Source: a virus. From it: a stretch of 41,897 nucleotides of DNA. Under the pieces are notes generated by a model. That model did not search any database and was not told where the DNA came from. It saw only the letters and a program-made list of their open reading frames with translations. The stretch lies in the IMG/VR virus record IMGVR_UViG_3300020469_000091, positions 1-41,897 of that record; one strand, given 5' to 3'. Shown one piece after another: positions 2,540-19,852 of this stretch (positions within the stretch are counted from its first letter, which is position 1; each line of letters starts with the position of its first letter). Both the position numbers and the translations under genes were made by a program.

Positions 2540-2754
2540 GAGACATCCGCAAGATTTGTGTGGGTCCGAATTACAAGGACTCGATGTGTTACGTGGTGGG
2601 ACAAGCCGTTCTTGGCGGGTCTCACCATGTGCATTTAATTAAATACAGCGAAGGCAGCTTTCTCATATACATTGAGCAAGAGGATACCGTAATACTCTGG
2701 AAAGAGTTTACGGCGCCCATGCCAATTTCAATAGAATACAACATCAACTTTTGA
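2536..2754 (+). CDS. Hypothetical protein, 72 aa
   Basis: The gene starts with GTG at 2536 overlapping the upstream stop, and ends at TGA 2752-2754 overlapping a TTG start. The protein (MRDIRKICVGPNYKDSMCYV) is beta-rich with a His-His pair and no known motif. Both edges show four-base overlaps (GTGA, TTGA), so it is a genuine coupled gene. Similar short proteins sit next to terminase genes in Bacteroidota phages, but I cannot assign a function. Confidence 0.65.
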   Translation: MRDIRKICVGPNYKDSMCYVVGQAVLGGSHHVHLIKYSEGSFLIYIEQEDTVILWKEFTAPMPISIEYNINF

Positions 2755-3302
2755 GGGCAGTAGAGCAATTCATCGTAAAGGGAGAGAGATACGCCAACAC
2801 CAAAGGAGACCTTATCGTAAGTAGCAACGAAGAGGACCATCGGTTTTCGAACCGAGAGGGTGAGGTGGTAGCGCTCCCAGTGGGGTATACGGGCCCAATA
2901 CAAGTTGGCGATACGCTACTTGTACACCACAACGTATTCAAGCATTACAACGACATGAAGGGTCGCCGACAAAGCGGTCGCAGCTTTCTTCGTGACGACC
3001 TGTTCTTAGTAGACTTCGACCAGTTCTATATGTGGCGTCGGGATGGCGATTGGAACTCTCACGACAGGTTTTGTTTTGTTAGCCCTATACCTCCTCAGGA
3101 GTCTACCATATTCAAGCCTTTGACAGAAGAGCCTTTGATGGGGATAATGAGTTACCCAAATGATTATCTTATGGCCCAAGGAATTAAGTCTGGTGACACG
3201 GTAACCTTCAAGCCCGATAGCGAGTACGAGTTCAATGTAGGGGGTAAGAAGATGTACCGAATGTTTGACCACCAAATCACATGCAAGATTCAAGGAAGCT
3301 AA
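2751..3302 (+). CDS. GroES-like (co-chaperonin fold) protein, candidate
   Basis: Two stretches of this 183-residue protein resemble the core of GroES/Cpn10. The first is GEVVALPVGYTGPIQVGDTL (about residues 37-56), followed by a charged loop and FLVDFDQFYMW. The second is QGIKSGDTVTF plus EYEFNVGGKKMYRMF (about residues 142-170). The pattern G-E-V-x-A, then V-G-D-x-hydrophobic, is the GroES signature region. Phage co-chaperonins such as T4 gp31 help the host GroEL fold the capsid protein, and this gene sits just ahead of the packaging/head genes. The start is TTG at 2751, overlapping the previous stop; internal ATG codons would remove the N-terminal strand. A structural virion protein with a similar fold is an alternative. 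Confidence 0.5.
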   Translation: MRAVEQFIVKGERYANTKGDLIVSSNEEDHRFSNREGEVVALPVGYTGPIQVGDTLLVHHNVFKHYNDMKGRRQSGRSFLRDDLFLVDFDQFYMWRRDGDWNSHDRFCFVSPIPPQESTIFKPLTEEPLMGIMSYPNDYLMAQGIKSGDTVTFKPDSEYEFNVGGKKMYRMFDHQITCKIQGS

Positions 3303-5762: not shown

Positions 5763-8198
5763 ATGAAGGACGTCAAGGTGAACATCTCTACTGCTGGTTT
5801 CCCCAGTCAGTTTGTTTCTGACGCGGAAAAAGCCAGCGACGAGTACGGCTTGATGGTCGGGCAAGCCATTCAATACGAGTGGTTTAAGAAGGATGGAAAC
5901 CAGTGTCGGTTCTACAACCAATGGCGCGACTTCAACCGTCTGCGCCTGTATGCCCGTGGCGAGCAGAGCGTCTCCAAGTACAAGAACGAGCTTGCCGTCG
6001 ACGGCGACCTTTCGTATTTGAATTTGGATTGGACTCCGGTGCCCATCTTGCCCAAGTTCATTGACATCGTAGTCAACGGTTTGTCGGAGCGCATCTTCAA
6101 GGTCAAGGCTTACGCGCAAGACGCTTTGTCTCAGGCCAAGCGCAGCAAGTATCAGGATATGATTGAGGGGCAGATGGTAGCCAAGCCTGTCTTGGACATC
6201 ATCCAGCAAAAGACTGGCGTCGACCCGTTCACTATGAACCCTGACGACCTGCCTAGCACCGACGAGGAGTTGCAGGTATATATGCAGCTCAACTACAAGC
6301 CTGCTATTGAGATTGCTGAGGAGGAAGCCATCAATACTATCCTCGAAGAAAACCACTACTCGGACTTGCGGAAGCGCATGGACTACGACCTCGCCGTTTT
6401 GGGCGTCAGTGTCGCCAAGCACGAGTTTTTGCCGGGTGCGGGTGTAGAGCTTTCGTATGTGGACCCTGCCAACGTGGTGTATAGCTACACCGAGGACCCA
6501 TACTTCAAGGACTGCTTCTACTGGGGTGAGGTTAAGACCCTCCCTATCACGGAGCTAATGAAAATCGACCCCAGCCTCACCAACGAGGACTTGGAGGAGA
6601 TTAGCAAATACAGTCAGAGTTGGTACGACTACTATAACGTGGCTCAGTTCTACGAGAACGATATGTTCTATCGTGACGTAGCTACGTTGATGTACTTCAA
6701 CTACAAGACGACCAAGAAGATTGTATACAAGCGTAAGAAGCTTGACGGCGACGGTGCCCGGATGATTGAAAAGGACGACCAGTTCAATCCGCCGGAGGAG
6801 ATGATGGAGGAGGGCAACTTCGAAAAGGTTGAGAAGACCATCGACGTCTGGTACGAGGGCATCATGGTTATGGGCACGAACATCTTGCTCAAGTGGGAGG
6901 TGGCAGAGAACATGGTTCGCCCTAAGTCTGCCAGCCAGCATGCGCTCCCCAACTATGTGGCTACAGCACCACGTATGTACAAGGGTGTCATCGAGTCTCT
7001 CACTCGGCGCATGATTCCTTTCGCCGACCTCATTCAAATCACGCACCTCAAGCTTCAGCAGGTTATCTCTCGCACTGTTCCTGACGGCGTTTACATCGAC
7101 GCTGACGGCCTCAACGAGGTCGACCTAGGGACGGGCAACGCATACAACCCGGAAGACGCTCTACGGCTCTATTTCCAAACGGGTAGCGTTATCGGAAGGT
7201 CATACACTCAGGACGGGGATTACAATCAGGGCAAGGTTCCTATCCAAGAGCTCAACAGCAACAGTGGTGCTGCCAAGACGCAGATGTTGATTGGCAATAT
7301 GAATCACTATCTGCAAATGATTCGTGACGTTACGGGCCTCAACGAGGCTCGCGACGGGAGCACTCCCGACCCTCGTGGCTTGGTGGGCTTGCAGAAGTTG
7401 GCTGCGGCGAACAGCAACACGGCTACGCGACACATTCTTGACGGCAGCCTATATATGTTCCGTACTCTGGCTGAGGCTTTGACATACCGGGTTAGCGACA
7501 TCCTTGAGTACGCAGACTTTAAGGACGAGTTTGTAAATCAGATTGGTAAGTACAACGTCAGTATCCTAAAGGAGATTAACGAGTTGTATATCTACGACTT
7601 CGGCATCTTCATTGAGATTAGTCCTGACGAGGAGCAGCGTGCGCAGCTCGAGGCCAATATCCAAATGGCTTTGAGCAAGGGTGGTATAGACCTTGAGGAC
7701 GCCATCGATATCCGTGAGATTAAGAACCTGAAGCTGGCCAACCAGCTCTTGAAGATTAAGCGTATTGCTAAGCAAGAGGAGGAGCGGCAGTTCCAACTTC
7801 AGCAGCAGCAGATGCAGGCCCAGAACAACATGCAGTCTCAGCAGATGGCTGCGCAGACGGCCATGCAAAAGATTCAAGCTGAGGGCCAGAGCAAGATGCA
7901 GGTGAAGCAGGCGGAGATTGCATTTGAGATTGAGAAGATGCAGGCCGAGGCACAGCTCAAGGCACAGCTTATGGAGCGGGAGTTCCAGTACCAGATGCAA
8001 ATCGCGGGCGTACAAGAGCAGGGGCTACAGTCTCGCGAGGACCGTCGCGAAGACGCTAAAGCCAGCCGCATCAGTCAACAGAACACGGAGCAGAGCAAGC
8101 TTATCGACCAGCGTAAGAACAACTTGCCTCCCATTGATTTCGAGTCGAATGAAGATAGCTTGGACGGCTTCGACTTGGCAGAATTTAGTCCGAGATAA
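5763..8198 (+). CDS. Portal protein
   Basis: An 811-residue protein starting one base after the TerL stop. Position and length fit the dodecameric portal through which DNA is packaged and ejected. Conserved-looking blocks include GLSERIFKV (about residue 107), the helical GLNEARDGSTPDPRGLVG (about 525-542) and KLAAANSNTATRHIL, which closely recall crAss-like portal proteins. The last third has a long Gln/Met-rich coiled coil (FQLQQQQMQAQNNMQSQQMA, about 680-760), probably forming the portal barrel that reaches into the capsid. The protein ends in an acidic, disordered tail. Confidence 0.88.
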   Translation: MKDVKVNISTAGFPSQFVSDAEKASDEYGLMVGQAIQYEWFKKDGNQCRFYNQWRDFNRLRLYARGEQSVSKYKNELAVDGDLSYLNLDWTPVPILPKFIDIVVNGLSERIFKVKAYAQDALSQAKRSKYQDMIEGQMVAKPVLDIIQQKTGVDPFTMNPDDLPSTDEELQVYMQLNYKPAIEIAEEEAINTILEENHYSDLRKRMDYDLAVLGVSVAKHEFLPGAGVELSYVDPANVVYSYTEDPYFKDCFYWGEVKTLPITELMKIDPSLTNEDLEEISKYSQSWYDYYNVAQFYENDMFYRDVATLMYFNYKTTKKIVYKRKKLDGDGARMIEKDDQFNPPEEMMEEGNFEKVEKTIDVWYEGIMVMGTNILLKWEVAENMVRPKSASQHALPNYVATAPRMYKGVIESLTRRMIPFADLIQITHLKLQQVISRTVPDGVYIDADGLNEVDLGTGNAYNPEDALRLYFQTGSVIGRSYTQDGDYNQGKVPIQELNSNSGAAKTQMLIGNMNHYLQMIRDVTGLNEARDGSTPDPRGLVGLQKLAAANSNTATRHILDGSLYMFRTLAEALTYRVSDILEYADFKDEFVNQIGKYNVSILKEINELYIYDFGIFIEISPDEEQRAQLEANIQMALSKGGIDLEDAIDIREIKNLKLANQLLKIKRIAKQEEERQFQLQQQQMQAQNNMQSQQMAAQTAMQKIQAEGQSKMQVKQAEIAFEIEKMQAEAQLKAQLMEREFQYQMQIAGVQEQGLQSREDRREDAKASRISQQNTEQSKLIDQRKNNLPPIDFESNEDSLDGFDLAEFSPR

Positions 8199-8217
8199 AT
8201 AATATAATTTTACAGCA
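8199..8217 (+). promoter_or_regulatory. A/T-rich leader before the scaffold-like gene
   Basis: The 19 bases before the ATG at 8218 (ATAATATAATTTTACAGCA) are almost pure A/T in a GC-richer region. No Shine-Dalgarno is present. A/T-rich leaders replace Shine-Dalgarno sequences in highly translated Bacteroidota genes. The TATAAT inside could also be part of a promoter, but no -35 or -33 element sits at proper spacing. Confidence 0.4.
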
Positions 8218-9285
8218 ATGGAAATCAAAGTCCGAGAGGTCACTGATGTGGAAGCCAAATCCACGCAACAGGTAGAGCAGGAGCTTCTAGAGAAGCATGA
8301 GGCGGAAGTAAGCGGAGAAACTACCGAAGAGCAGCCTGCTCCAGCGGAAGAGCCTGACGGCCTTTCCGAGGACGCCGTGCGTTCTTTTTTGAGTGAGCGT
8401 TACGGTCGGGAGATTACGTCTCTTGACGAGCTGGCCGAAGCCCGTTCCGAGGCTCCTGAGTTACCAGAAGATGTAGCTGCTTACTACAAGTTTAAGCAAG
8501 AGACCGGGCGTGGTCTCAACGATTTTATGAAGGTGAACCGCAACCTCGACGAGGCGGACGGAGACACCTTGCTAAAGGAATACTTCCTGATTACTGAAGA
8601 CGGCCTCGATTCTGAGGACGTGGAGATGATGATGGAGGATTACAAGTTTGATGCAGACCTCGACGACGAGGCTGATATCAAGAAGGCCAAGTTGGCCAAA
8701 AAGAAAGCTATTGCTAAGGCGAAGAAATATTTCGAAGAGCAGAAAGAGCAGTATAAAGCGCCTCTTGAGTCAAGGGGCGTGGACTCTCTGGAGAGCTCTG
8801 AGGAGTACCAATCGTACAAACAATATGTTGAGCAGGCGAAGACGTACCAAGAGGAACAGAAGCGCAGGAAAGAGTGGTTCGACGAGAAGACCAATGAAGT
8901 TTTCTCAGATGGATTCAAAGGTTTTGAGTTCAGTATCGACGACAAGTCCTACGTGTACACTCCCGGTGACCGCACTGAATTGAAGAAGCTCCAACAGACT
9001 CCGGAGGCTTGGTTAAACAAGTATCTGGATGACAAGGGCCTCGTCAAGGACGCAGCGGGATACCATAAGTCTTTGGCTGTCGCCATGAACCCCGAGAAGT
9101 TTGCCCAGTTCTTTTTTGAGCAGGGGCAATCCAGTGCGGTGGACGACGTCATGCGCAAGACAAAAAACATCAACATGTCTGAGCGCACGACGCCACAAGC
9201 CGTCAGCAAGGGGGGAATGAAAATCCGCGCCGTCACTCAAGATTCAGGCCGTGGCCTGAAGATTAGGAGCCGGCGCACCACCTAA
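8218..9285 (+). CDS. Scaffold-like head assembly protein, 355 aa
   Basis: The protein is very rich in Glu, Asp and Lys, mostly helical and without cysteine. The first 60 residues are acidic and Pro-rich (AEVSGETTEEQPAPAEEPDG), the middle is coiled coil (KKAKLAKKKAIAKAKKYFEE), and the C-terminus is basic (GGMKIRAVTQDSGRGLKIRS). This layout, with acidic helical rods ending in a basic capsid-binding tail, is the usual one for phage scaffolding proteins, which template the prohead and then leave. It is placed between portal and major capsid protein, as expected. Sequence similarity alone was not decisive. Confidence 0.75.
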   Translation: MEIKVREVTDVEAKSTQQVEQELLEKHEAEVSGETTEEQPAPAEEPDGLSEDAVRSFLSERYGREITSLDELAEARSEAPELPEDVAAYYKFKQETGRGLNDFMKVNRNLDEADGDTLLKEYFLITEDGLDSEDVEMMMEDYKFDADLDDEADIKKAKLAKKKAIAKAKKYFEEQKEQYKAPLESRGVDSLESSEEYQSYKQYVEQAKTYQEEQKRRKEWFDEKTNEVFSDGFKGFEFSIDDKSYVYTPGDRTELKKLQQTPEAWLNKYLDDKGLVKDAAGYHKSLAVAMNPEKFAQFFFEQGQSSAVDDVMRKTKNINMSERTTPQAVSKGGMKIRAVTQDSGRGLKIRSRRTT

Positions 9286-9304
9286 CTCTTAGAAAACAGA
9301 AAAC
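9286..9304 (+). promoter_or_regulatory. A-rich translation leader of the capsid gene
   Basis: The leader CTCTTAGAAAACAGAAAAC ends right at the ATG at 9305. It has A runs at the positions that drive initiation in Bacteroidota (upstream -3 to -15) and lacks a Shine-Dalgarno sequence. The capsid protein needs the highest translation of all phage genes. Confidence 0.45.
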
Positions 9305-10741
9305 ATGGCAGGTTCAGTACAAGCCACCCCGGGGTTCGATTTACAACCCAGCGCGGAGCGCGTTGCTCTCGCAACCAATTACATCACCAACTTCGACTTC
9401 CTCAATCAGTATCTCCCCGATACTTATGAGAAGGAGTTCGAGCGTTATGGCAACCGGACTGTGTCTGGCTTCCTTCGCATGGTTGGTGCCGAGATGCCCA
9501 CCAACTCCGACATGATTAAGTGGGCGGAGCAAGGTCGTCTCCACACCAAGTACACCAGCTGCACGTCGGCTGCCAATACTGCGGCAGACACAGCTACGTG
9601 GACGGTGAACGACACCCTCAACCCCGGCACTGGCGGCATCGCCATCCGCAAGGGTCAGACGGTGTTCATCACGGATAACACTGCGGCCAGTGGTCTCAGC
9701 AACAAAGCTGTTGTTACCGACGTCGATTACGCTAACGGCACTTTTGACGTTGCGTACTACGAAGGTGGCGGTCAGACTATGGCTGCTGCGACGGCTTGTA
9801 CCGTTATGATTTATGGCTCTGAGTTCAAGAAGGGGACTACTGGCATGGAGAACTCTCTCGAAGCCGACGACCTCATCTTCGACAACAAGCCTATCATCTT
9901 GAAGGACAAGTACGAGGTGTCAGGTTCTGACATGGCTCAGATTGGATGGATTGAGGTGACCACGGAGAACGGTGCTACCGGATACTTGTGGTACATGAAG
10001 TCCGAGCACGAGACCCGTCTCCGCTTTGATGACTACCTCGAGACAGCTATGATTGAGGCTGTGCCTGCTGGCGTGGGCTCTGGTGCTGCTACTGCACTCG
10101 GCGTTCCAAACGCTACTGCTGGCTCCCTCCAAGGCGCTGGTTCCGAGGGCATCTTCTACGCTGTAGAGACTCGCGGAAACCTGTGGTCTGGTGGCATCCC
10201 CTCAGCTTTGGCTGACTTCGATGCTGTTATCAGCCGCTTGGATAAGCAGGGCTCCATCGAGGAGAACGTTATCTTCGTGAATCGTGACATGAGCTTCGAT
10301 ATCGACGACATGTTGGCTGCACAGAACAGCTACGGTGCCGGCGGTACTAGCTACGGTCTCTTCGACAACGACGAGCAGATGGCGCTCAACCTTGGTTTCA
10401 CAGGCTTCCGCCGTGGTTACGACTTCTACAAGTCTGACTGGAAGTACCTGAACGACCCAACGATGCGCGGTGGCCTCACCAATGGTGTTGTCAACGGCTT
10501 GCTGGTTCCTGCTGGAAGCACCACGGTCTATGACCAAGTGCTCGGTAAGAACGCCAAGCGTCCGTTCCTGCACGTCCGTTATCGCGCAAGCGAAACCGAA
10601 GACCGTCGCTACAAGACGTGGATTACGGGTTCTGCTGGCGGAGCTGCTACGAGCACTCTCGACGCGATGGAGGTCAACTACCTCTCTGAGCGTGCCGTTT
10701 GCGTCATGGGCGCGAACAACTTCTTCCTGTTTAAGGACTGA
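9305..10741 (+). CDS. Major capsid protein
   Basis: At 478 residues, directly after the scaffold-like gene, this is the expected major capsid protein of HK97-type fold that forms the icosahedral shell. The N-terminal block YLPDTYEKEFERYGNRTVSG (about residues 37-56), followed by FLRMVGAEM, resembles capsid proteins of crAss-like and related podoviruses. An internal Gly/Thr-rich beta insertion (about residues 80-170) could be a surface loop or decoration domain. Codon use is strongly GC-biased with preferred C-ending codons, consistent with high expression, and it has an A-rich leader. A GC hairpin follows the stop. Confidence 0.88.
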   Translation: MAGSVQATPGFDLQPSAERVALATNYITNFDFLNQYLPDTYEKEFERYGNRTVSGFLRMVGAEMPTNSDMIKWAEQGRLHTKYTSCTSAANTAADTATWTVNDTLNPGTGGIAIRKGQTVFITDNTAASGLSNKAVVTDVDYANGTFDVAYYEGGGQTMAAATACTVMIYGSEFKKGTTGMENSLEADDLIFDNKPIILKDKYEVSGSDMAQIGWIEVTTENGATGYLWYMKSEHETRLRFDDYLETAMIEAVPAGVGSGAATALGVPNATAGSLQGAGSEGIFYAVETRGNLWSGGIPSALADFDAVISRLDKQGSIEENVIFVNRDMSFDIDDMLAAQNSYGAGGTSYGLFDNDEQMALNLGFTGFRRGYDFYKSDWKYLNDPTMRGGLTNGVVNGLLVPAGSTTVYDQVLGKNAKRPFLHVRYRASETEDRRYKTWITGSAGGAATSTLDAMEVNYLSERAVCVMGANNFFLFKD

Positions 10742-10804: not shown

Positions 10805-11539
10805 ATGAATAAAGACAAGACGTACCGCCTGCTCCGAGGGCAGGCCCCCCTCTCTTTTATGATTCCCGGTCGCAGCACCACTCGCAAACCTCTTCTGTAT
10901 TGGGATGACGAAAAGGGTGAGAACCGCGTGCTACGCTATGCTCGAAACCAAAGGAGCCCCTTTGAAGATGAGCAGGACGGGAACGCTATCGTAGAGCCCA
11001 TCGTCTTTGAGGACGGTATGCTCCACGTTCCTAAAAACAATCCGGTTTTGCAGCAGTTCCTTGCTCACCACCCGTTTAATGGTGCGCAGTTTGAGGAGGT
11101 CAACCTCGAGCGCGACGCTGAGGCCGAGGTAGAGCAGTTGAATATGGAAGTCGACGCACTCATCGAGTGTAAGGCTTTGACGCTAGACCAGCTCGAAACC
11201 ATGTCTCGCGTTATGCTTGGCGTAGACCCCAGCAAGTACACTACGGCAGAGTTGCGACGAGATATGCTGGTTGCTGTACGCCGCGACCCCGAGCACTTCC
11301 TGACTTTGGTCAACGACCCCGACGTGAAGTTGCAGGGGCAGGTGCAGCGGTTCTTCGACGAGAGCCTCCTTTCCTTCCGTCGCAACAAGACAGAGATTTG
11401 GTACAATGGGCCTAACAACAAGAAGAAGCTTGTTACCATTCCACACGGCCAAGACTACCTGTCGGTTGCGATTTCATATCTACTTAGCGAAGAGGGCCTT
11501 GAGCACCTCCGCGCTCTCGAGGCCATGACCTCAGATTGA
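10805..11539 (+). CDS. Head-module protein of unknown function, 244 aa
   Basis: The protein follows the capsid gene, after a hairpin and an A-rich leader, and precedes a strong terminator, so it closes the head transcription unit. The N-terminal half (TYRLLRGQAPLSFMIPGRST) looks beta-structured; the C-terminal half is helical, with a SAP-like stretch (LTLDQLETMSRVMLGVDPSK) and then TTAELRRDML. Proteins of this size after the capsid gene are common in Bacteroidota phages and are generally unnamed. It may be a head decoration or completion protein. Confidence 0.65.
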   Translation: MNKDKTYRLLRGQAPLSFMIPGRSTTRKPLLYWDDEKGENRVLRYARNQRSPFEDEQDGNAIVEPIVFEDGMLHVPKNNPVLQQFLAHHPFNGAQFEEVNLERDAEAEVEQLNMEVDALIECKALTLDQLETMSRVMLGVDPSKYTTAELRRDMLVAVRRDPEHFLTLVNDPDVKLQGQVQRFFDESLLSFRRNKTEIWYNGPNNKKKLVTIPHGQDYLSVAISYLLSEEGLEHLRALEAMTSD

Positions 11540-11561
11540 TTCTCTCATACTACCAGAAAAG

Positions 11562-11587
11562 AGCCACCTTCGGGTGGCTTTTTTTTT
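11562..11587 (+). terminator. Intrinsic terminator ending the head module
   Basis: AGCCACC-TTCG-GGTGGCT forms a seven-pair stem with a UUCG tetraloop, followed at once by nine T residues. This is a textbook Rho-independent terminator, 22 bases after the stop of the 244-aa gene and 13 bases before the ATG of the secreted protein at 11601. Confidence 0.92.
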
Positions 11588-11600
11588 GGAACTTCATGTC

Positions 11601-12794
11601 ATGAAGCGTTGGCTCCTATTACTCTACTTCCCTCTTTCTTCTTATGCTCAATGTGACCTTGAGCTCCTTGACTTTGATGTAGTCGCGGGCACTGTTACTG
11701 TTGCTTTCAACAACACTGAAAACTGTGGCGGTACGGCAGGCCCTGACGGTATAGCAGAAATCCAGTTTGGTTTCCAAGCTGTAGACGACGACTGCAACGC
11801 CATCAATGCAGGGTGGGATTTCCCGTCTGGGTTTTCTATTTCTGACGACTCTCCCCATCCGGGTTGGATATACTCTGCCACCACTTCGGAAAGCTCTAAC
11901 AATTGGACAAACCTCTATGACGATGCGATAGACGCTCCGTATTACACTGGAGACACTGTCGTCTTTCCCATATACAACTCGTATCAAAGCGACTGTGTTG
12001 ACGGGCCTTATGCTGCGCAGCTATATTGCAATGTCGAGGGCTGCATACAGCACTGGCTTAGCCTTGGCTTGAGCATACAGGTTGTGATATGGCAAATCAG
12101 CTTTGGTCCAACTATGTACGCTGAAGACGGTGGTTGGGCTGAGGTCGGCGCCAACGGCGACGGTTCAAGTTGGGGTTCTGGGGTTTATGACGACGAAAAC
12201 TTTGAAGACAATTGGCTTGTAGTAGGCGGTTGTGGCGAACCCCTGCCTGAGGTTATCGTAGACACGGTTTACATAGAGCTGCCCCCAGACACCGTCATCG
12301 TTCTAGAGTACGACACCACGTATATCTACGTTACGGACACTGTTGTAGAATACGATACGGCGTATGTACAGCTACCGCCTATTACAGTGTATGATACCAT
12401 CACTGTTCCTATAAACTGGTATTTCTACGACACCACGTATGTAACGATTGTAGACACTATTGTCGTTGAGGTGGACTGCGTTACTGGCGAAGAGTGTTTA
12501 GAGGTCATAGAGTGCCCCGTATACATCCCCAACAGCTTTACTCCGGACAACGACGGCGTCAATGATTCGTGGCGAGTGGTGGCGGCAGAGGACTGCTGGG
12601 ATAATATTGACATTAGCGTTTACTCTCGATGGGGAGATATGGTTTGGATTTCCAACTCATTAGAAGAGCAGTGGGACGGCGGCTACACACGTGCTATGGT
12701 TCGCGACGACGTGTACAGCTACCGCTTTATTGCTAGGAATAAGTACACCTATCAGTGGGTAGAGCGCCTTGGTCACATAGTGGTGCTGAGATAG
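11601..12794 (+). CDS. Secreted protein with type IX secretion (type B) C-terminal domain
   Basis: I chose the ATG at 11601 because it begins a clear signal peptide (MKRWLLLLYFPLSSYA, then QCDLEL); an in-frame ATG at 11574 lies inside the upstream terminator. Residues 17-215 are a Cys-containing beta-rich domain with no recognised family. Residues about 218-293 are a DT-repeat linker (VDTVYIELPPDTVIVLEYDT and more). From about residue 307 the sequence YIPNSFTPDNDGVNDSW, then SVYSRWGDMVW and EQWDGGY, is the gliding-motility-associated/CHU_C domain (TIGR04131 type), the type B signal for the type IX secretion system. Known family behaviour: Sec export, then T9SS transport across the outer membrane. 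The product would reach the host surface or medium, not obviously the virion. It could mask receptors or bind the host matrix. It is isolated from the head genes by a strong terminator. Confidence 0.85.
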   Translation: MKRWLLLLYFPLSSYAQCDLELLDFDVVAGTVTVAFNNTENCGGTAGPDGIAEIQFGFQAVDDDCNAINAGWDFPSGFSISDDSPHPGWIYSATTSESSNNWTNLYDDAIDAPYYTGDTVVFPIYNSYQSDCVDGPYAAQLYCNVEGCIQHWLSLGLSIQVVIWQISFGPTMYAEDGGWAEVGANGDGSSWGSGVYDDENFEDNWLVVGGCGEPLPEVIVDTVYIELPPDTVIVLEYDTTYIYVTDTVVEYDTAYVQLPPITVYDTITVPINWYFYDTTYVTIVDTIVVEVDCVTGEECLEVIECPVYIPNSFTPDNDGVNDSWRVVAAEDCWDNIDISVYSRWGDMVWISNSLEEQWDGGYTRAMVRDDVYSYRFIARNKYTYQWVERLGHIVVLR

Positions 12795-12807
12795 TTATCT
12801 TTAGAGG

Positions 12808-13524
12808 ATGATTAACTCGGTCCGTGACACCGTATTGTCCATACTCAACAAGAACAACTACGGATACATTTCTCCTTCGGACTTCAACCTGTTTGCCAAG
12901 CAGGCGCAGCTAGAGATTTTCGGGGGTTACGCTACCGACCTCAACAAGGTCATCAACGCTGAGAACGCTCGCATGTCGGGTACGGAATACGCCGACCTCA
13001 ACAAGGGCGTTCGCGAAGACATCGACATTTTTTCTCGCACGGCTACGCTCACTCAGGATGCCGCCAATGCGTACTTCACTCCTAGCGTCGCCACTACAAG
13101 CGACGACTACTATTTGCTAAATAAGGTTTTGGCTGGTGGCGTAGAGGCGGAGCCAGTGCACCACAGCAAGATTACTTTGCTCAACGCGAGCCCGCTTACG
13201 GCGCCTTCGGTTCAGTACCCTGCGTATACTTTGGATACGGGCACGGGAGGGGCTCAGGTAGCCACTATCTACCCTGCCACCATCACCGGCGCCAACGATG
13301 TGGTGTGTCAATACATCCGTTACCCTAAAGACCCGAAGTGGACGTTTAGTGTTTTGACCAACGGCGAGCCCGTGTTCAACCAAAGCCTACCCGACTATCA
13401 AGACTTCGAGGTACCCATCGACGATGAGCCACGCCTCATATACCGCATTTTGCAATTGGCTGGCATGAGCATCCGCGAGGGTGACGTGTACCAGTTTGCT
13501 AACGCTGAAGAAGCCCAACAGTAA
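12808..13524 (+). CDS. Head-tail connector (ring/adaptor-type) protein, 238 aa
   Basis: The N-terminus (MINSVRDTVLSILNKNNYGY, then ISPSDFNLFAKQAQLEIF) is a helical pattern shared by conserved structural genes of crAss-like and Cellulophaga podoviruses located after the capsid gene. The C-terminus again is helical (PRLIYRILQLAGMSIREGDV). Position before another connector-like gene and a giant tail protein supports a role in the neck that joins portal to tail. The stop shares bases with the next ATG (TAATG), so the two are translated together. Confidence 0.65.
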   Translation: MINSVRDTVLSILNKNNYGYISPSDFNLFAKQAQLEIFGGYATDLNKVINAENARMSGTEYADLNKGVREDIDIFSRTATLTQDAANAYFTPSVATTSDDYYLLNKVLAGGVEAEPVHHSKITLLNASPLTAPSVQYPAYTLDTGTGGAQVATIYPATITGANDVVCQYIRYPKDPKWTFSVLTNGEPVFNQSLPDYQDFEVPIDDEPRLIYRILQLAGMSIREGDVYQFANAEEAQQ

Positions 13525-14447
13525 TGCCATACCTATCAGACTACGCGTATTACGAAAACGACGGCAACGCACCAGAAGATGCCAACTGGGGCAGCTACCA
13601 ATACGTTACGCTACAGGATATCGTAACCAACTATCAGCTCATGTATATGGGCAACCACTCGTTGGTCAATAACGAGGAGCGATACAAGGTCTTGTTCCAC
13701 GCCAAGCGAGCCATCCAAGAGTTGAACTACGATGCTTTCAAGGAGATTAAAATCCTTGAGCTCAACGTCTGCGACCAGCTTCGTTTCGTTCTGCCTTCCG
13801 ACTACGTCAACTGGGTTCGCATCAGCTTGTACAAGGATGGCGTTTTGCGGCCCTTGACAGAAAATATTCAGACTACGTTCAGCGCAGCGTATTTGCAGGA
13901 CAACGACTGCCGCATCCTGTTCGACCAGAACGGAAACGCGTTGCGGCCAGAGAACTCTACTATTGATTTCGACCGCATCAACGGAACCAAGAAGAGCATA
14001 TACCTGAACGGAGCGAGTCAATTCGATGGGCAACTAGGGTATTGCTGCGATGGCGATTGGTATTTCGACTACGCCATAGGTGCTCGGTACGGATTGAATA
14101 CGGAGACGGCTAACGCAAACCCCACGTTTGGTATCGACAGAAAGGGCGGCGTCATCAACTTCAGTTCTGACGTAGCGGGGGAGCTGGTTATAGTGGAGTA
14201 TGTCAGCGATGGCATGGAGGGCGGTGACAACACGGCCATCACGGTCAACAAGCTCTTCGAGGACTACGTATATGCGTATATCAACTACGCTATCCTAGAC
14301 GCTAAGTTGGGGGTTCAGGAGTACATCGTAAACAGAGCGAAGAAAAAGAAGAGCGCCTTATTGCGCAACGCGAAGATTCGCATCAGCAACATCCATCCGG
14401 GACGGTTGCTTATGAACCTCCGTGGCCGAGACAAGTGGATTAAGTAA
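13524..14447 (+). CDS. Connector/tail-ring structural protein, 307 aa
   Basis: The block FHAKRAIQELNYDAFKEIKI (about residues 58-77), followed by LRFVLPSDYVNWVRISLYKDG, recurs in virion ring or connector proteins of Bacteroidota and marine podoviruses. The C-terminal part is helical and very basic (NRAKKKKSALLRNAKIRISN), with a conserved-looking HPGRLLMNLRGRDKWIK end. It is linked by TAATG overlaps to genes on both sides. Probable role: part of the neck between portal and the large tail protein. Confidence 0.7.
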   Translation: MPYLSDYAYYENDGNAPEDANWGSYQYVTLQDIVTNYQLMYMGNHSLVNNEERYKVLFHAKRAIQELNYDAFKEIKILELNVCDQLRFVLPSDYVNWVRISLYKDGVLRPLTENIQTTFSAAYLQDNDCRILFDQNGNALRPENSTIDFDRINGTKKSIYLNGASQFDGQLGYCCDGDWYFDYAIGARYGLNTETANANPTFGIDRKGGVINFSSDVAGELVIVEYVSDGMEGGDNTAITVNKLFEDYVYAYINYAILDAKLGVQEYIVNRAKKKKSALLRNAKIRISNIHPGRLLMNLRGRDKWIK

Positions 14448-17400
14448 TGGCAAATCTGGTAAGGAACTTCATCAAGGGCCGGATGAACAAGAGCGTCGAC
14501 GAGCGCCTTGTTCCAGACGGGGAGTATATCGATGCTCAGAATATTCGGATGGGCTCTACGGAGGATTCCGAAATTGGCACGGTAGAAAACACCAAGGGCA
14601 ACACGCAACTTACCACTCTGGTGTACCCACCTACGGGCACGGCCTTGAGTGCTCAAGCCACGTGCATCGGGGCTTACAGCGACGGCGCCAACGAGACCAT
14701 GTACTGGTTCGTCCACGACCCTGCTTTCACTGTGGGCACGGTGGGGAAGCTCGACCTTATCGTCTCTTACAATACGCGTAACGACACCCTTACATACCAT
14801 GTGGTATCCATAAAGGATGCTACTGACGCGACGCGCACCACCCTCAACTTCGACCCTCAGAACTTGATTACTGGCGTCGATTTAGTTGACGGTCTTTTGT
14901 TCTTCACCGACGATAAGAACCCGCCAAGGCGAATCAACGTAGCCACCGCGTATCCTCAGCCGGTTACCAATCTCGACTACAACGTTCTTGGTGACGACAT
15001 CCGCGTTATCAAGGCACCTCCCACTGAGGCTCCCGTTGTTTTGGGCTCTCACGACAATAGTCAAAACGACTATATGGAGGACCGCATCATCTGTTTTGCA
15101 TACCGCTATGAGTATGAGAACGGAGAGTATTCGGCCACCTCACAATTCAGCGCCCCTGCTTTTGTAAGCAAGCCATTCAACTTCACTACTGCCTCGTTCC
15201 TAAACGAGGGTATGGAGAACGCCATCAATACCTGTGACGTTACGGTACGCACTGGAAGCTCTTTGGTGAAAGGTATCGACATCCTTTTCAAGGAGATGGA
15301 CGATAGCATTATCCGCGTCATTGAGCGCGTCGATAAAGCCACTACTGCGCTTACAGACAACGCGGACTACACCATCACGTTCAGCAAGAGCAAGATTTTC
15401 ACCATCCTTCCTGATAGTGAGATTCTTAGGCTCTACGACAACGTCCCTCGCTTGGCTAAAGCCCAAACCCTGATGGGCAACCGCCTTGTTTACGGCAACT
15501 ACCTTGAGGGATACGACCTAACCGACTCTAACGGTCAGCCTATTAAGTTCGGGTACGAGGTGTCTCACATGCAGACCCCGGTGGGAAACAGCATTGCGTC
15601 TGCTTCACCCACAAATACGCAAACCTACACCTTAACGGGAGGCAATACGACTCCGACCACCGTAGTCACAGTTGAGTTCGATGAGTTCAACTTGATTAAG
15701 GGAGATACGTTTACCGTTCAGTTTACGGTTCAGGGAGACACTCCCAACTGGACGCCTTCGGTCGCTACCACTCCCACTTCCTCTATGCCTGCCACAACGG
15801 TAGAGGTTCAGTATACGCTTACTGAGACTTTTGCTTCGGTGGTGGAGATGGTGGCCAGCACCAGCTTCCTAAACACTATCGGCACAGCTTCAAATATTGA
15901 GACTACGGCTGCCGACTTCGGAAGCTCCGACCAGCGCATTTGGACCAACGCATGGAACGCCTCCTTGCCACAGTCCGCTACAGGCGGTACCCCGGACCCC
16001 ATGGCTTTGAACGGCAGTGGAATCACTGCTTTGGGACAGCCCGCTAGTGTATTCGGTTCTACCGCCACTTCGTTTAGCGTGGCCTTCCCCATGCCTGAAT
16101 ATGAGGGGGGTGCAACGGATTACTACGAGCTGCTTATTGTCAGCGGCGTGTCTGTTTCGCTAAGCAACTTGGGTCCTCGCCCAAGCCTACACAGCAACCG
16201 CAGCTATGAAGTGGGCATCGTCTATATGGATGACTACGGAAGGTCCAGCACGGCGCTCGTCAACTTCGGTAACGACATCCAAATCCCTTGTTCGGATTCT
16301 ATTTTCCGCAATTACATACGTGTACAGATTCCCTCTGCTATGCGCGTACCCGCTTGGGCCGACAGGTATAAGTTCGTCATCAAGCCTGACGAGGAGACGT
16401 ACGAAACCATATACTCTAACATCATTACCAGCGCCGATAGTTCTGGCAACAGGTACTTCCTCTTGGAGGGTGAGAACGCAGCGAAGATAGAGACCGGAGA
16501 CAGGCTAATCGTCAAGGCGGATACGGCGGGCCCGTCCTCTACATGCACTTACGCTGAGGTTCTAGATAAAAAGGCTTACCCTGTAGATGGCGTCGCAAGT
16601 GGCATCCCGGCTGTAGCGGGGACGTACATGAAGATTCGTCCGGAGTTCAACGTGAGTCAGTCTTCGTCGGAGTTTTTCATTGGAGAAAAATCAGCCGGAA
16701 CCAACGGCGGTTCAGACCAAAACACAGACAGCACGAACGACTTCCCGGTTTTAGTTTATGATGGTTTTGCAACTATCGGTGCCATCCCTGCTGGGAGTAG
16801 GATTCGGCTTACGCTAAACTTCTCTCGTCAAGGTCGGGGCGACGCGGCGTGCGAAACCAGAACCTTGGACTTCGACCACACTTGGACTGCTGACGCGGAA
16901 TACACCAATATCATAAACTGGTTTTACAACCAAGATGGCGTCATCTCGACTATTGAGAACGCCACTGGTTTTTCTGGCGACCCCAATACCGCAGCGCCTA
17001 CAAACAATGTCTTGGCTGCCACCACTACAGCGGGGTCAGACTATGGTATTACGGGCTCTAACCTCGTAAACCAAATGAGGTGGCATACCAACAACCTCAC
17101 TAATCCCACTACGTTCGAGTTCATTGTTTTCGGAACCAACAAGTGTTCTGGTGGATTCGGTTCTGGTAGTAGCCCAAATCGTCGGTCTCGAGTAAAGGCC
17201 AACTGGACTGTTATTACGGCCAGCGAAACCTGCGTTTTCGAAACGGAGCCTAGCGCAGCGCTACCCGACTTGTGGTATGAATCCAGTGAGTCTTTCCAGA
17301 TTGATAAGCAAAATGGGTTGTATTACGGTAACGTACAAAACCAAACCGCTTCGCAACCCGCGATTATAGACACCGACTTCTTCAACTGCATCAGCTATGG

Positions 17401-19852
17401 CAATGGCGTTGAGAGCTATAAGATTCGTGACTCGGTAAAGGGAAAACCCCTTAGCCTCGGCAACCGCGTCACTACTGTCAGTGACCAAGACTACAAGGAG
17501 ATTCGTCGCTTTGCCGACCTGACGTACAGCGGCGTATACAACGATGAGACGAACTTAAACAAGCTCAACGAGTTCAACCTTGGCCTCCTCAACTTCAAGC
17601 CACTAGAGGATAGCTATGGCTCTGTAGAAAAGCTTTTTGCTCGCAAGACCGACATCCTCACTTTGCAGGAGGATAAGATTAGCTATGTGCTGGCGGGTAA
17701 GAACCTGCTTAGCGATGCCGTTGGAGGCGGCGTTATCTCGTCTGTTCCTCAGGTGCTCGGCACACAAGTGGCTAGGACTGAGGACTTTGGCATCAGCAAC
17801 AACCCCGAGAGCTTTGCCGAGTGGGGGCCCCATAAATTCTTTACCGACGCCAAGCGCGGAGCCGTTATACATCTGTTCGGCGACGGTCAAAATGAGAATC
17901 TCGAGGTCATCAGCGAAAAGGGGATGCGCGGGTGGTTCCGCGACGAGTTTATCTCTGGCTTCAACACTCAAAAGCTGGGAGGTTACGACCCGTATATGAA
18001 CGAGTATGTTCTAGCCAGTAACGATGTTTTGCTGCCGGGAGAGACTGCTTGCATAGAGTGCAATGCGATACAGACGTTCCTATTGACATCTGCGGGGGAG
18101 TCGTATTGCGTAGAGCTCGGAAACGAGGTTGGTAACGCTACGGTTAGCTACAATGTTATTGAGGCCTCGGGAGGCGACACCGCTGTTATCACGGGAACTT
18201 ACAATAACGTTTCTACCAATTCTGGCTCTATTGGTTCTGGCAGCACGGGGTCTTTTACTATCAACAAAGATTCTGTTTCTATTTCCAAGGCAGACATAGC
18301 CATTGCTCTTACGGGTAGTGGGCGTTTCGTGGTTCAAGTTATCGTTGAGTGCCCGTTGGTTACGGACCTCACTATGCACCTTGTTACGCTTAGTCGTCCT
18401 GAGTACCAGAAGCAGTCTATCCATAGTCAATACGAGTGGGCCTCAGGAAACTTTACGTCACCTTTGAGCAGCACTCCTGTCACGTTCCAGTTCGGTGGTT
18501 CGGCCCCTGTGGTTTCTGAGTGGATTGAGTTTACTTCAGCTCAGGGCTCCAACCTTGTGCCTACCAACGGCAGCGACCTCACTCTTATCTACAACAGGTT
18601 AGCTAACGATAGCTATACTTTGCGTGCTGAGGACCGCTTCCACCTCCTTCGCACTGCCACTAAGTACACTCAGTTTCAGGTCCCGTCTATTCTCGGTGAC
18701 GGCGCTCTCGTCACGGTTGTTCCTTCGGGCGCTCAACCTCGTTACATAGGCGACTTCGCTAACTTCCCTACCACGGGTGACAACGTATACCTAATCTGGG
18801 ACTATTCCAATGCCAGCGCGGGCTCCGGTGGCGGCGACTCCGGTGGCGGCGACTCCGGTGGCGGCGACTCCGGTGGCGGCGACTCTGGCGGTGGCGACTC
18901 TGGCGGTGGCGACTCTGGCGGTGGCGGTGAGACGGGCTTCCTTCTGGACCAGACGTATGCCACGGGCGCTGCGGCTGCATACTCTACGCGTCGCCTCTAC
19001 TCCCTTTATACTGGGGCAGCTATGCGTATTCGCCGAGATACGGGAGCCGGTAACGCTGGTCACGATGAAGAGGCGGACGTCCTATTCGATGCTAATGGAG
19101 ACTTGAACCTAAGCTGTTCCATCTCCAACGCGAGCTCAGGCGTTTCGGCCACTACTTTCGGTGAGTTCGTTGGTGCTACAGGCTATTCCGACCCCGACAG
19201 TGTTTCTTCGTACACGGTCCTCGCGTATGTGGATACTTGGTACGACCAGAGCACGGCGGGGGGCACGGGGTCTGGCAACGACGCAGAGCAGTCCACACCC
19301 GGCAGCCAACCGCAGATATACAACGGCTCTGCTGTAATTACTGAGAACGGTAAGCCAGCACTTGACTTTGATGGAAGCTCTGATACTTTAAAAATGAGCT
19401 TTGGAAGCAATGAGTCGCAGCCAAACCAAATATTGCTGGTGGCAACCAATGACACAACAAACTTTAGTTCTTATAGAGTTTTATTCTCAGGTTACAACTC
19501 TTCTTTTGCTCGCCACCAATTTGAGACAAGAATTGGCGCTCAAGCGGGTGAACTAGCTATGTACGCTGGCGCAAGCAATGCAAGCACTACGCAAATTGGG
19601 ACAAGCCAATCACTTTACAACAATCTTGTGGATGGGGCAAGCAGTGATATGCGCGTTAATGGCGCTAGTATAGCCCAAGGCGATGCTGGCAGTTTTGCAA
19701 TAGACGGTCTTACACTGGGCGCGAGGTTCAATAATATCTATCATTTTGACGGTCGTATGCAAGAGCTTGTTTTTTACCCGTCAGATAAATCAAGCAGTAA
19801 CAGCGGCATAGAGACGAACATTGATAATTACTTCAACATACCCGGAATGTAA
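14447..19852 (+). CDS. Large tail (muzzle/stabilisation-type) protein with lectin-like C-terminal domain
   Basis: This protein has 1801 residues. The N-terminus (FIKGRMNKSVDERLVPDGEY, then IDAQNIRMGSTE) is typical of the large tail stabilisation or muzzle proteins of podoviruses infecting Bacteroidota. Residues up to about 1455 form a long beta-rich body. Residues 1460-1494 are a glycine linker of six SGGGD units and one SGGGG. Residues about 1497-1801 form a ConA/LamG-like domain (AAYSTRRLYSLYTGAAMRIR; TWYDQS; GKPALDFDGSSD; NIDNYFNI end) related to the C-terminus of the protein at 2-586. The linker looks like a hinge for a receptor-binding tip. From about base 19330 composition becomes clearly more AT-rich, a sign that the tip has been exchanged. 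It starts in a TAATG overlap. Confidence 0.8.
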   Translation: MANLVRNFIKGRMNKSVDERLVPDGEYIDAQNIRMGSTEDSEIGTVENTKGNTQLTTLVYPPTGTALSAQATCIGAYSDGANETMYWFVHDPAFTVGTVGKLDLIVSYNTRNDTLTYHVVSIKDATDATRTTLNFDPQNLITGVDLVDGLLFFTDDKNPPRRINVATAYPQPVTNLDYNVLGDDIRVIKAPPTEAPVVLGSHDNSQNDYMEDRIICFAYRYEYENGEYSATSQFSAPAFVSKPFNFTTASFLNEGMENAINTCDVTVRTGSSLVKGIDILFKEMDDSIIRVIERVDKATTALTDNADYTITFSKSKIFTILPDSEILRLYDNVPRLAKAQTLMGNRLVYGNYLEGYDLTDSNGQPIKFGYEVSHMQTPVGNSIASASPTNTQTYTLTGGNTTPTTVVTVEFDEFNLIKGDTFTVQFTVQGDTPNWTPSVATTPTSSMPATTVEVQYTLTETFASVVEMVASTSFLNTIGTASNIETTAADFGSSDQRIWTNAWNASLPQSATGGTPDPMALNGSGITALGQPASVFGSTATSFSVAFPMPEYEGGATDYYELLIVSGVSVSLSNLGPRPSLHSNRSYEVGIVYMDDYGRSSTALVNFGNDIQIPCSDSIFRNYIRVQIPSAMRVPAWADRYKFVIKPDEETYETIYSNIITSADSSGNRYFLLEGENAAKIETGDRLIVKADTAGPSSTCTYAEVLDKKAYPVDGVASGIPAVAGTYMKIRPEFNVSQSSSEFFIGEKSAGTNGGSDQNTDSTNDFPVLVYDGFATIGAIPAGSRIRLTLNFSRQGRGDAACETRTLDFDHTWTADAEYTNIINWFYNQDGVISTIENATGFSGDPNTAAPTNNVLAATTTAGSDYGITGSNLVNQMRWHTNNLTNPTTFEFIVFGTNKCSGGFGSGSSPNRRSRVKANWTVITASETCVFETEPSAALPDLWYESSESFQIDKQNGLYYGNVQNQTASQPAIIDTDFFNCISYGNGVESYKIRDSVKGKPLSLGNRVTTVSDQDYKEIRRFADLTYSGVYNDETNLNKLNEFNLGLLNFKPLEDSYGSVEKLFARKTDILTLQEDKISYVLAGKNLLSDAVGGGVISSVPQVLGTQVARTEDFGISNNPESFAEWGPHKFFTDAKRGAVIHLFGDGQNENLEVISEKGMRGWFRDEFISGFNTQKLGGYDPYMNEYVLASNDVLLPGETACIECNAIQTFLLTSAGESYCVELGNEVGNATVSYNVIEASGGDTAVITGTYNNVSTNSGSIGSGSTGSFTINKDSVSISKADIAIALTGSGRFVVQVIVECPLVTDLTMHLVTLSRPEYQKQSIHSQYEWASGNFTSPLSSTPVTFQFGGSAPVVSEWIEFTSAQGSNLVPTNGSDLTLIYNRLANDSYTLRAEDRFHLLRTATKYTQFQVPSILGDGALVTVVPSGAQPRYIGDFANFPTTGDNVYLIWDYSNASAGSGGGDSGGGDSGGGDSGGGDSGGGDSGGGDSGGGGETGFLLDQTYATGAAAAYSTRRLYSLYTGAAMRIRRDTGAGNAGHDEEADVLFDANGDLNLSCSISNASSGVSATTFGEFVGATGYSDPDSVSSYTVLAYVDTWYDQSTAGGTGSGNDAEQSTPGSQPQIYNGSAVITENGKPALDFDGSSDTLKMSFGSNESQPNQILLVATNDTTNFSSYRVLFSGYNSSFARHQFETRIGAQAGELAMYAGASNASTTQIGTSQSLYNNLVDGASSDMRVNGASIAQGDAGSFAIDGLTLGARFNNIYHFDGRMQELVFYPSDKSSSNSGIETNIDNYFNIPGM
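18824..18928 (+). repeat. 15-bp in-frame minisatellite coding (SGGGD)n
   Basis: Seven tandem 15-base units: four TCCGGTGGCGGCGAC, then two TCTGGCGGTGGCGAC, then TCTGGCGGTGGCGGT. The unit keeps the reading frame, so copy changes alter only linker length between tail body and lectin-like tip. Two unit variants in blocks indicate expansion by slippage or unequal exchange. Confidence 0.95.

Follow-up and report, generated by a model that had tools for sequence, protein, structure and literature searches.

A predicted type IX secretion cargo gene in a phage genome

The window, by which the whole 41.9-kb IMG/VR virus record IMGVR_UViG_3300020469_000091 (41,897 nucleotides) is meant, carries terminase (phrog_6681), P22-like portal, major capsid, and tail-side virion genes on one strand and, on that same strand, a gene for a predicted substrate of the type IX secretion system (T9SS). 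This gene (positions 11601–12794, + strand), here called the cargo gene, starts with an ATG at 11601 and encodes 397 amino acids; an in-frame GTG at 11574 would extend the open reading frame to 406 amino acids, and this codon falls inside a terminator. The translation opens with MKRWLLLLYFPLSSYA, continues with QCDLE at the start of a 195-residue N-terminal domain (N-domain), and ends in GHIVVLR.

The protein begins with a Sec-type signal peptide, MKRWLLLLYFPLSSYA (11601–11648), whose predicted cleavage between A16 and Q17 is based on the sequence and on the leaders of homologues. The passenger follows: this N-domain (amino acids 17–211; 11649–12233) is, from alignment and AlphaFold2 modelling, a beta-rich domain with conserved cysteines and belongs to no known family. 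A low-complexity DT-Y/V linker (amino acids 212–289; 12234–12467), predicted to be disordered from its sequence and from the predicted local distance difference test (pLDDT) of the model, connects it to the T9SS type B C-terminal sorting region (12468–12791), which is delimited by profile matches and alignment and has its Pfam core at 12525–12734.

The C-terminal domain (CTD) matches both CHU_C PF13585 (E = 7.5e-15, 55.3 bits; cut-off 27) and the model for T9SS type B sorting domains, TIGR04131 (E = 6.3e-12, 45.5 bits; cut-off 35), with the profile match spanning positions 3–72 of 86. Pfam and NCBIfam scans of the whole protein return nothing beyond this CHU_C/type B match. The domain lies at the C-terminal end in each of the 93 copies that are complete at the 3′ side (91 counted by strict motif and two with one changed letter; some contigs account for two loci). 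An initial annotation of this DNA had proposed a T9SS C-terminal domain here and had exposed the claim to a TIGR04131 search; with both profiles over their cut-offs, the claim survives. The signal peptide that it proposed is likewise borne out. Among 55 distinct homologues, the leader before the invariant QCDLE diverges freely, as in the widely different MKRWLLLLYFPLSSYA, MKWIIPFMFPLLCSA, MRICKVFLILLWVTSPLYS, and MRFWIMILLLILSKILNG, and despite this divergence it is short and basic/hydrophobic, with A, S, or G as its last residue, in all 55. Such endings before QCDLE fit a signal peptidase I cut between A16 and Q17, and it is strongly suggested that the protein bears a Sec-type signal peptide removed before Q17. 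A sorting domain above curated cut-offs, a predicted Sec leader, and an extreme C-terminal position are together what is expected of a type B substrate, and the cargo gene is best read as a T9SS type B substrate gene of phage origin, an orphan in that it has no shuttle of its own.

The N-domain had been called unfamiliar, and it remains so: searches against Pfam, NCBIfam, PHROGs, PADLOC, and PDB sequences give no identification, and Foldseek comparison of its model with the PDB returns only immunoglobulin (Ig)-like and C2 matches, all insignificant. The viral structure library BFVD holds one clear relative, recognised by sequence: A0A516LPX6, a viral protein that is also 397 amino acids long and shares 55% identity over the aligned N-domain. 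The tables consulted give neither a name nor a function for this protein. AlphaFold2 models the N-domain with moderate confidence (pLDDT 67.5; predicted template modelling score, pTM, 0.70). Conserved Trp, Tyr, and Gly residues abound in the domain, and the differences between copies lie in indel-bearing loops around an invariant core. The full-length model is poor overall (pTM 0.47); within it, the CTD is predicted well, the linker falls below a pLDDT of 50 over model residues 201–282, and a weak structural match to PorZ (E = 2.8e-3, 96 columns) is consistent with a T9SS domain.

Distribution of the family and its genomic setting

A seeded scan of viral DNA finds 51 loci related to the cargo gene, nearly all matched over their full length, and an N-domain profile search finds 83 relatives in viral contigs; combined, these searches place the family in at least 84 distinct IMG/VR contigs. 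Exactly one CHU_C protein is encoded per phage record (38/38), and the cargo gene is free of in-frame stops in each of these 38 records. Median ratios of nonsynonymous to synonymous substitution rates (dN/dS) are 0.10 (N-domain), 0.14 (CTD), and 0.21 (linker), and the N-domain evolves under purifying selection.

Bacterial genomes present a different picture. A seeded scan of one genome per species, across 84,980 bacterial and archaeal species, reveals no relative, and a profile search of around 800 Bacteroidota genomes yields one weak match and one strong. The strong match (L215:8988–10430) lies in a Flavobacteriales contig with housekeeping genes. Its similarity to the N-domain ends after about 160 residues, after which the frame runs on as an alpha/beta-hydrolase at the contig end, and the GC content falls from 0.37 to 0.27 there; this ambiguous copy may reflect transfer from a phage or an assembly chimera. 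The cargo gene represents a real phage gene family whose N-domain is nearly absent from the bacteria searched. Recent uptake of the gene from bacteria was also considered and is not supported, given one ambiguous copy in the roughly 800 Bacteroidota genomes and none among some 85,000 species. A host gene carried passively, via transduction or contig contamination, and functionless for the phage could account for an N-domain copy among housekeeping genes. This explanation is nevertheless extremely improbable and is largely refuted by the distribution already: the family occupies at least 84 viral contigs from several lineages under strong purifying selection, its frame is open in the 38 records noted above, and the bacterial copy is itself partial, with a GC drop that may mark phage transfer or a chimera.

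Three lineages can be distinguished by terminase and flanking genes. In lineage I, to which the window belongs, the cargo gene sits at the head/tail junction, between the gene for a conserved head-side protein (10805–11539, + strand; phrog_34748) and that for a virion structural protein (12808–13524, + strand; phrog_14543); the major capsid-type virion protein is encoded at 9305–10741 (+ strand; phrog_13704). In lineage II, it lies directly 5′ of terL, the start of which overlaps the cargo stop by four bases in L017. The lineage III gene has a DUF5675 gene on one side and other secreted-type genes on the other and is the only gene there on its strand, and in the 100-kb contigs L035–L037 the cargo gene is found 3′ of a signal-peptide-bearing M43 peptidase gene. 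The two lineage I flanking genes are directly adjacent in phi38:1, elemoE, Gundel_1, and MW202828, and Panino has small hypothetical genes in the matching interval; none of these phages has a cargo homologue or a CHU_C domain. The cargo gene is an insert common to at least three phage lineages.

The named phages closest in terminase and capsid sequence are MW202828 (74% and 68% identity, respectively), Maribacter phage Panino (capsid, 53%), Elemovirus, and the Cellulophaga phages phi38:1 and Calle. The host of the window phage is therefore probably a Flavobacteriia-type bacterium, and the phage groups with the cargo gene probably infect Bacteroidota.

The insert has distinct borders in the window. 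Upstream, an intrinsic terminator, AAGAGCCACC-TTCG-GGTGGCTTTT plus a T run (11559–11587, + strand), forms a perfect hairpin that ends the head-gene unit; 13 bases separate it from the cargo start codon, and a terminator is present at the equivalent place in phi38:1, elemoE, Panino, and MW202828. Downstream, the sole TATCTTTA copy in the window (12796–12803, + strand) lies just 5′ of the ATG of the next gene, and TAnnTTTR directly precedes that gene in 102 of the 104 loci scored, whether the cargo gene is present or not. The element resembles the Bacteroidota −7 box, TAnnTTTG, and is a probable start element; should it act as a −7 box, the first tail-side gene would have an almost leaderless transcript. 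No promoter of the cargo gene's own was identified. Lying between a terminator and a probable start element, the gene is placed as a moron would be. The earlier proposal that it belongs to a virion operon therefore holds for the viral neighbourhood, with head and tail-side genes on the same strand, but not for the gene's continuity with them, since the terminator and the TATCTTTA element bound it; a plain operon member is a reading weakened both by the terminator and by the slot being empty in relatives.

Cargo-less slots (g10805–g12808; for example, in L228, L229, L238, and L265) often contain one or two beta-type proteins of 92–110 amino acids, possibly capsid decoration proteins. The idea that the slot is always filled by exported proteins is refuted, as relatives have small proteins without a signal peptide, HNH genes, and others there.

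Position bears directly on whether the cargo protein is a virion component, situated in the head–tail region of the particle, with the CTD as an Ig-like ornament that perhaps touches T9SS or gliding proteins on the host surface. In lineage I the gene does have capsid genes on one side and tail-side genes on the other, in lineage II it adjoins terL, and the 92–110-amino acid proteins in the slot of close relatives could be decoration proteins. However, a cleavable-type signal peptide, present in every copy, would be misplaced in a virion assembled in the cytoplasm; the insertion site differs between lineages; the terminator stands between the head genes and the cargo gene; and in those cultured relatives that have annotated virion proteins there is neither a homologue nor any CHU_C domain. 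A place in the particle is thus improbable.

Exchange of the passenger domain

Trees of the N-domain and of the CTD were built on the same 52 rows by a quick tree method, with lineage labels fixed from synteny before the trees were built. In the CTD tree, lineage I forms one clade (Shimodaira–Hasegawa-like approximate likelihood ratio test, SH-aLRT, 96). The N-domain tree needs five label changes for lineage I, at least three of them forced by well-supported branches, and the approximately unbiased (AU) test rejects a single lineage I clade for this domain (p = 3.3e-5; log-likelihood difference 276). Pairwise comparison illustrates the pattern: L098 (lineage I) and L033 (lineage III) are 94/91/95/79% identical across N-domain segments and 44/31% identical in the CTD, whereas L098 and L007, both of lineage I, share 75/66/55/79% identity in the N-domain segments and 93/92% in the CTD, with their flanking capsid genes 78% identical. 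These sequence comparisons indicate that the N-domain is swapped between phage lineages, with the signal peptide and CTD following the lineage. Recombination within the N-domain is possible.

A lineage-specific CTD is also what would be expected of a protein that jams the T9SS, as such a domain would be fitted to one host shuttle. The CTD would compete for the host shuttle or translocon and block the display of host adhesins, so that gliding stops or receptors are lost, and the N-domain would be secondary; type B substrates do serve gliding adhesins (PMC12618676). Jamming is nonetheless unlikely to be the function: the N-domain is more constrained than the CTD by the dN/dS values above, and its exchange between lineages would be needless for a pure jammer.

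Probable export and surface display, and candidate roles

Known type B substrates depend on export by Sec, on the T9SS translocon, and on a shuttle of the PorP/SprF type, and a cognate PorP/SprF gene near the substrate gene is usual, not universal. No match to PorP/SprF (PF11751) occurs in the 38 phage records, with four of four bacterial positive controls matched; four Bacteroidota genomes with similar CTDs have 6 to 15 PorP/SprF matches each. For the phages searched, the host must thus supply the shuttle.

Work in Flavobacterium johnsoniae has shown that the CTD decides the final location of a substrate, that a type B CTD is able to send other passengers to the surface, and that each of five conserved motifs (A–E) in the last 100 residues of such a domain is required for secretion (PMC12618676). 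Three orphan type B substrates without an adjacent sprF use a common host shuttle (PMC12618676), and a cargo protein without a shuttle gene is therefore still allowed as a type B substrate. The orphans Fjoh_1123, 1720, and 4934 resemble the cargo protein in having a signal peptide and a type B CTD with no neighbouring sprF-like gene; they are, however, chromosomal putative adhesins, whereas the window cargo is a phage gene (PMC12618676). A type B protein of P. gingivalis keeps its CTD uncleaved and is anchored by PorP (PMC9143113).

The cargo protein would be made during infection and exported by Sec, and its sequence strongly suggests that signal peptidase I cuts before Q17. From what is known of the family, the host T9SS translocon would then take the CTD, and a PorP/SprF-type shuttle of the host would collect the cargo. 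As PorP-like barrels anchor the type B domains known so far, the protein would remain on the outside of the infected cell, and the displayed part would be a phage-specific globular domain on a flexible stalk. Export via the host T9SS and surface display of the cargo protein are, on these grounds, highly probable. The initial annotation had likewise proposed export through the host T9SS with the help of PorP/SprF proteins; export stands as the best reading, but the phages searched bring no PorP/SprF gene to it. By itself, the sequence favours none of the consequences that this annotation had put forward, a superinfection block, altered gliding or adhesins, and release of progeny from a matrix, over the others.

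Once displayed, the N-domain may mask or occupy a surface structure used for phage adsorption, which would spare progeny or competing phages from loss on infected cells or debris. A passenger that is swapped between lineages, and whose differences lie in loops round an invariant core, points to a ligand-specificity module, and masking is favoured because phages exchange specificity modules in such a way. Masking of an adsorption structure, or superinfection exclusion, is accordingly offered as the favoured role only tentatively. Taken jointly, that an orphan type B cargo is exported and displayed, with masking as its favoured role only, is a reading we hold to be somewhat probable. A broader and rather doubtful extension is that phages carry host-T9SS-displayed specificity proteins, in which the signal peptide and CTD are fitted to the host shuttle in each lineage and the head domain comes from a pool common to distant lineages, like tail-fibre tips, and which would control the phages able to adsorb to an infected cell. 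The phage protein Llp of T5 offers an analogy of role only: it too is exported to the outer membrane region and stops non-productive adsorption, but it is a small, early periplasmic lipoprotein, whereas the window cargo is larger, of T9SS type, and without a lipobox (PMC9586334).

Several points weigh against export, display, and masking. Exclusion proteins of the T5 type are early and small, whereas in lineages I and II the cargo gene has late genes around it. It is accessory: in the sample of nearest relatives it occupies 4 of 56 informative sites in lineage I and 10 of 61 sites in lineage II, and no cultured phage was found with it. A phage without a shuttle would rely on a match with its host. 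Finally, the N-domain model is only moderately confident and leaves a highly conserved stretch (model residues 154–185) unresolved, so that no activity can be read from it.

Another candidate is an auxiliary role as a secreted adhesin or substrate-binding protein, which would aid infected cells, or the phage once released, within a polysaccharide matrix; the endoglucanase and GH39 cargo of Cryophage would be comparable. The conserved Trp, Tyr, and Gly of the N-domain are compatible with it, as are the M43 peptidase directly upstream of the cargo gene in one phage and the occurrence, in lineage II/III phages, of a second T9SS protein (type A) together with a protein like an outer-membrane barrel. 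No carbohydrate-binding or enzyme family was matched, however, and the N-domain is nearly absent from the bacteria searched; we therefore consider this role unlikely, if less so than jamming, and keep masking as the preferred one.

The second secretion cassette of lineage II/III phages (L044:13450–15984, − strand; L197–L208) encodes a protein of up to about 900 amino acids that combines GCTDPxAxNY repeats with a type A-like T9SS domain, PF18962, which is over the cut-off in 2 of 15 records and weak in three more. It is followed by a 344-amino acid protein that has a signal peptide and, as in an outer-membrane barrel, a terminal Phe, and then by a small membrane protein. In L035, a 100-kb phage contig, the M43-type peptidase directly upstream of the cargo gene (7926–9968) is accompanied by a fasciclin-domain protein (6494–7114), both with a signal peptide.

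Phage genes for T9SS cargo have been noted before. Those of Cryophage (Bellas et al. 2020, PMC7468147) are similar in bearing T9SS sorting domains, and in being proposed to be secreted by the host and to vary between phage variants; they differ in that type A domains are attached to an endoglucanase, a GH39 enzyme, and a PA14 protein. In the window family, by contrast, a type B domain is joined to a phage-specific domain, several lineages are involved, and passenger exchange is shown by trees. In the crAss-BACON cluster 2 contigs, T9SS sorting domain proteins adjoin head genes as well, but these are gut phages with BACON repeats, and no relation to the window N-domain was found (PMC6949934). 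No report of a type B phage cargo was found in the open literature, with subscription papers and preprints lying outside this coverage. Phage T9SS cargo is already known, if scarcely described and, in the open literature searched, mentioned only briefly and by annotation; the recombining type B family adds a new form of it.

This conserved, selected family, present in several lineages, separates an exchangeable displayed domain from lineage-bound export signals. It leads to the testable claim that phages infecting the abundant Bacteroidota may reshape the surface of the cells they infect, and it is a source of natural type B signals, which have to function with a host shuttle.

Type B domains also occur in the uncultured huge phages L209 (LR745206, 634 kb) and L210 (LR756502, 642 kb), which have four and three CHU_C domains, respectively. 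At the two loci inspected, they are borne by unrelated signal-peptide proteins, of 732 amino acids at L209:4111–6309 and 1670 amino acids at L210:1258–6270. As these proteins are unrelated, phages seem to have acquired type B export on more than one occasion.

Elsewhere in the window, position 1 already falls within a LamG-like C-terminus (1–586), which resembles the end of the 1801-amino acid tail-side protein (14447–19852), which has SGGGD repeats. A GroES-like protein is encoded 5′ of the terminase genes (2751–3302; Cpn10 E = 0.0019, below the cut-off) and is similarly annotated in Elemovirus and Panino.
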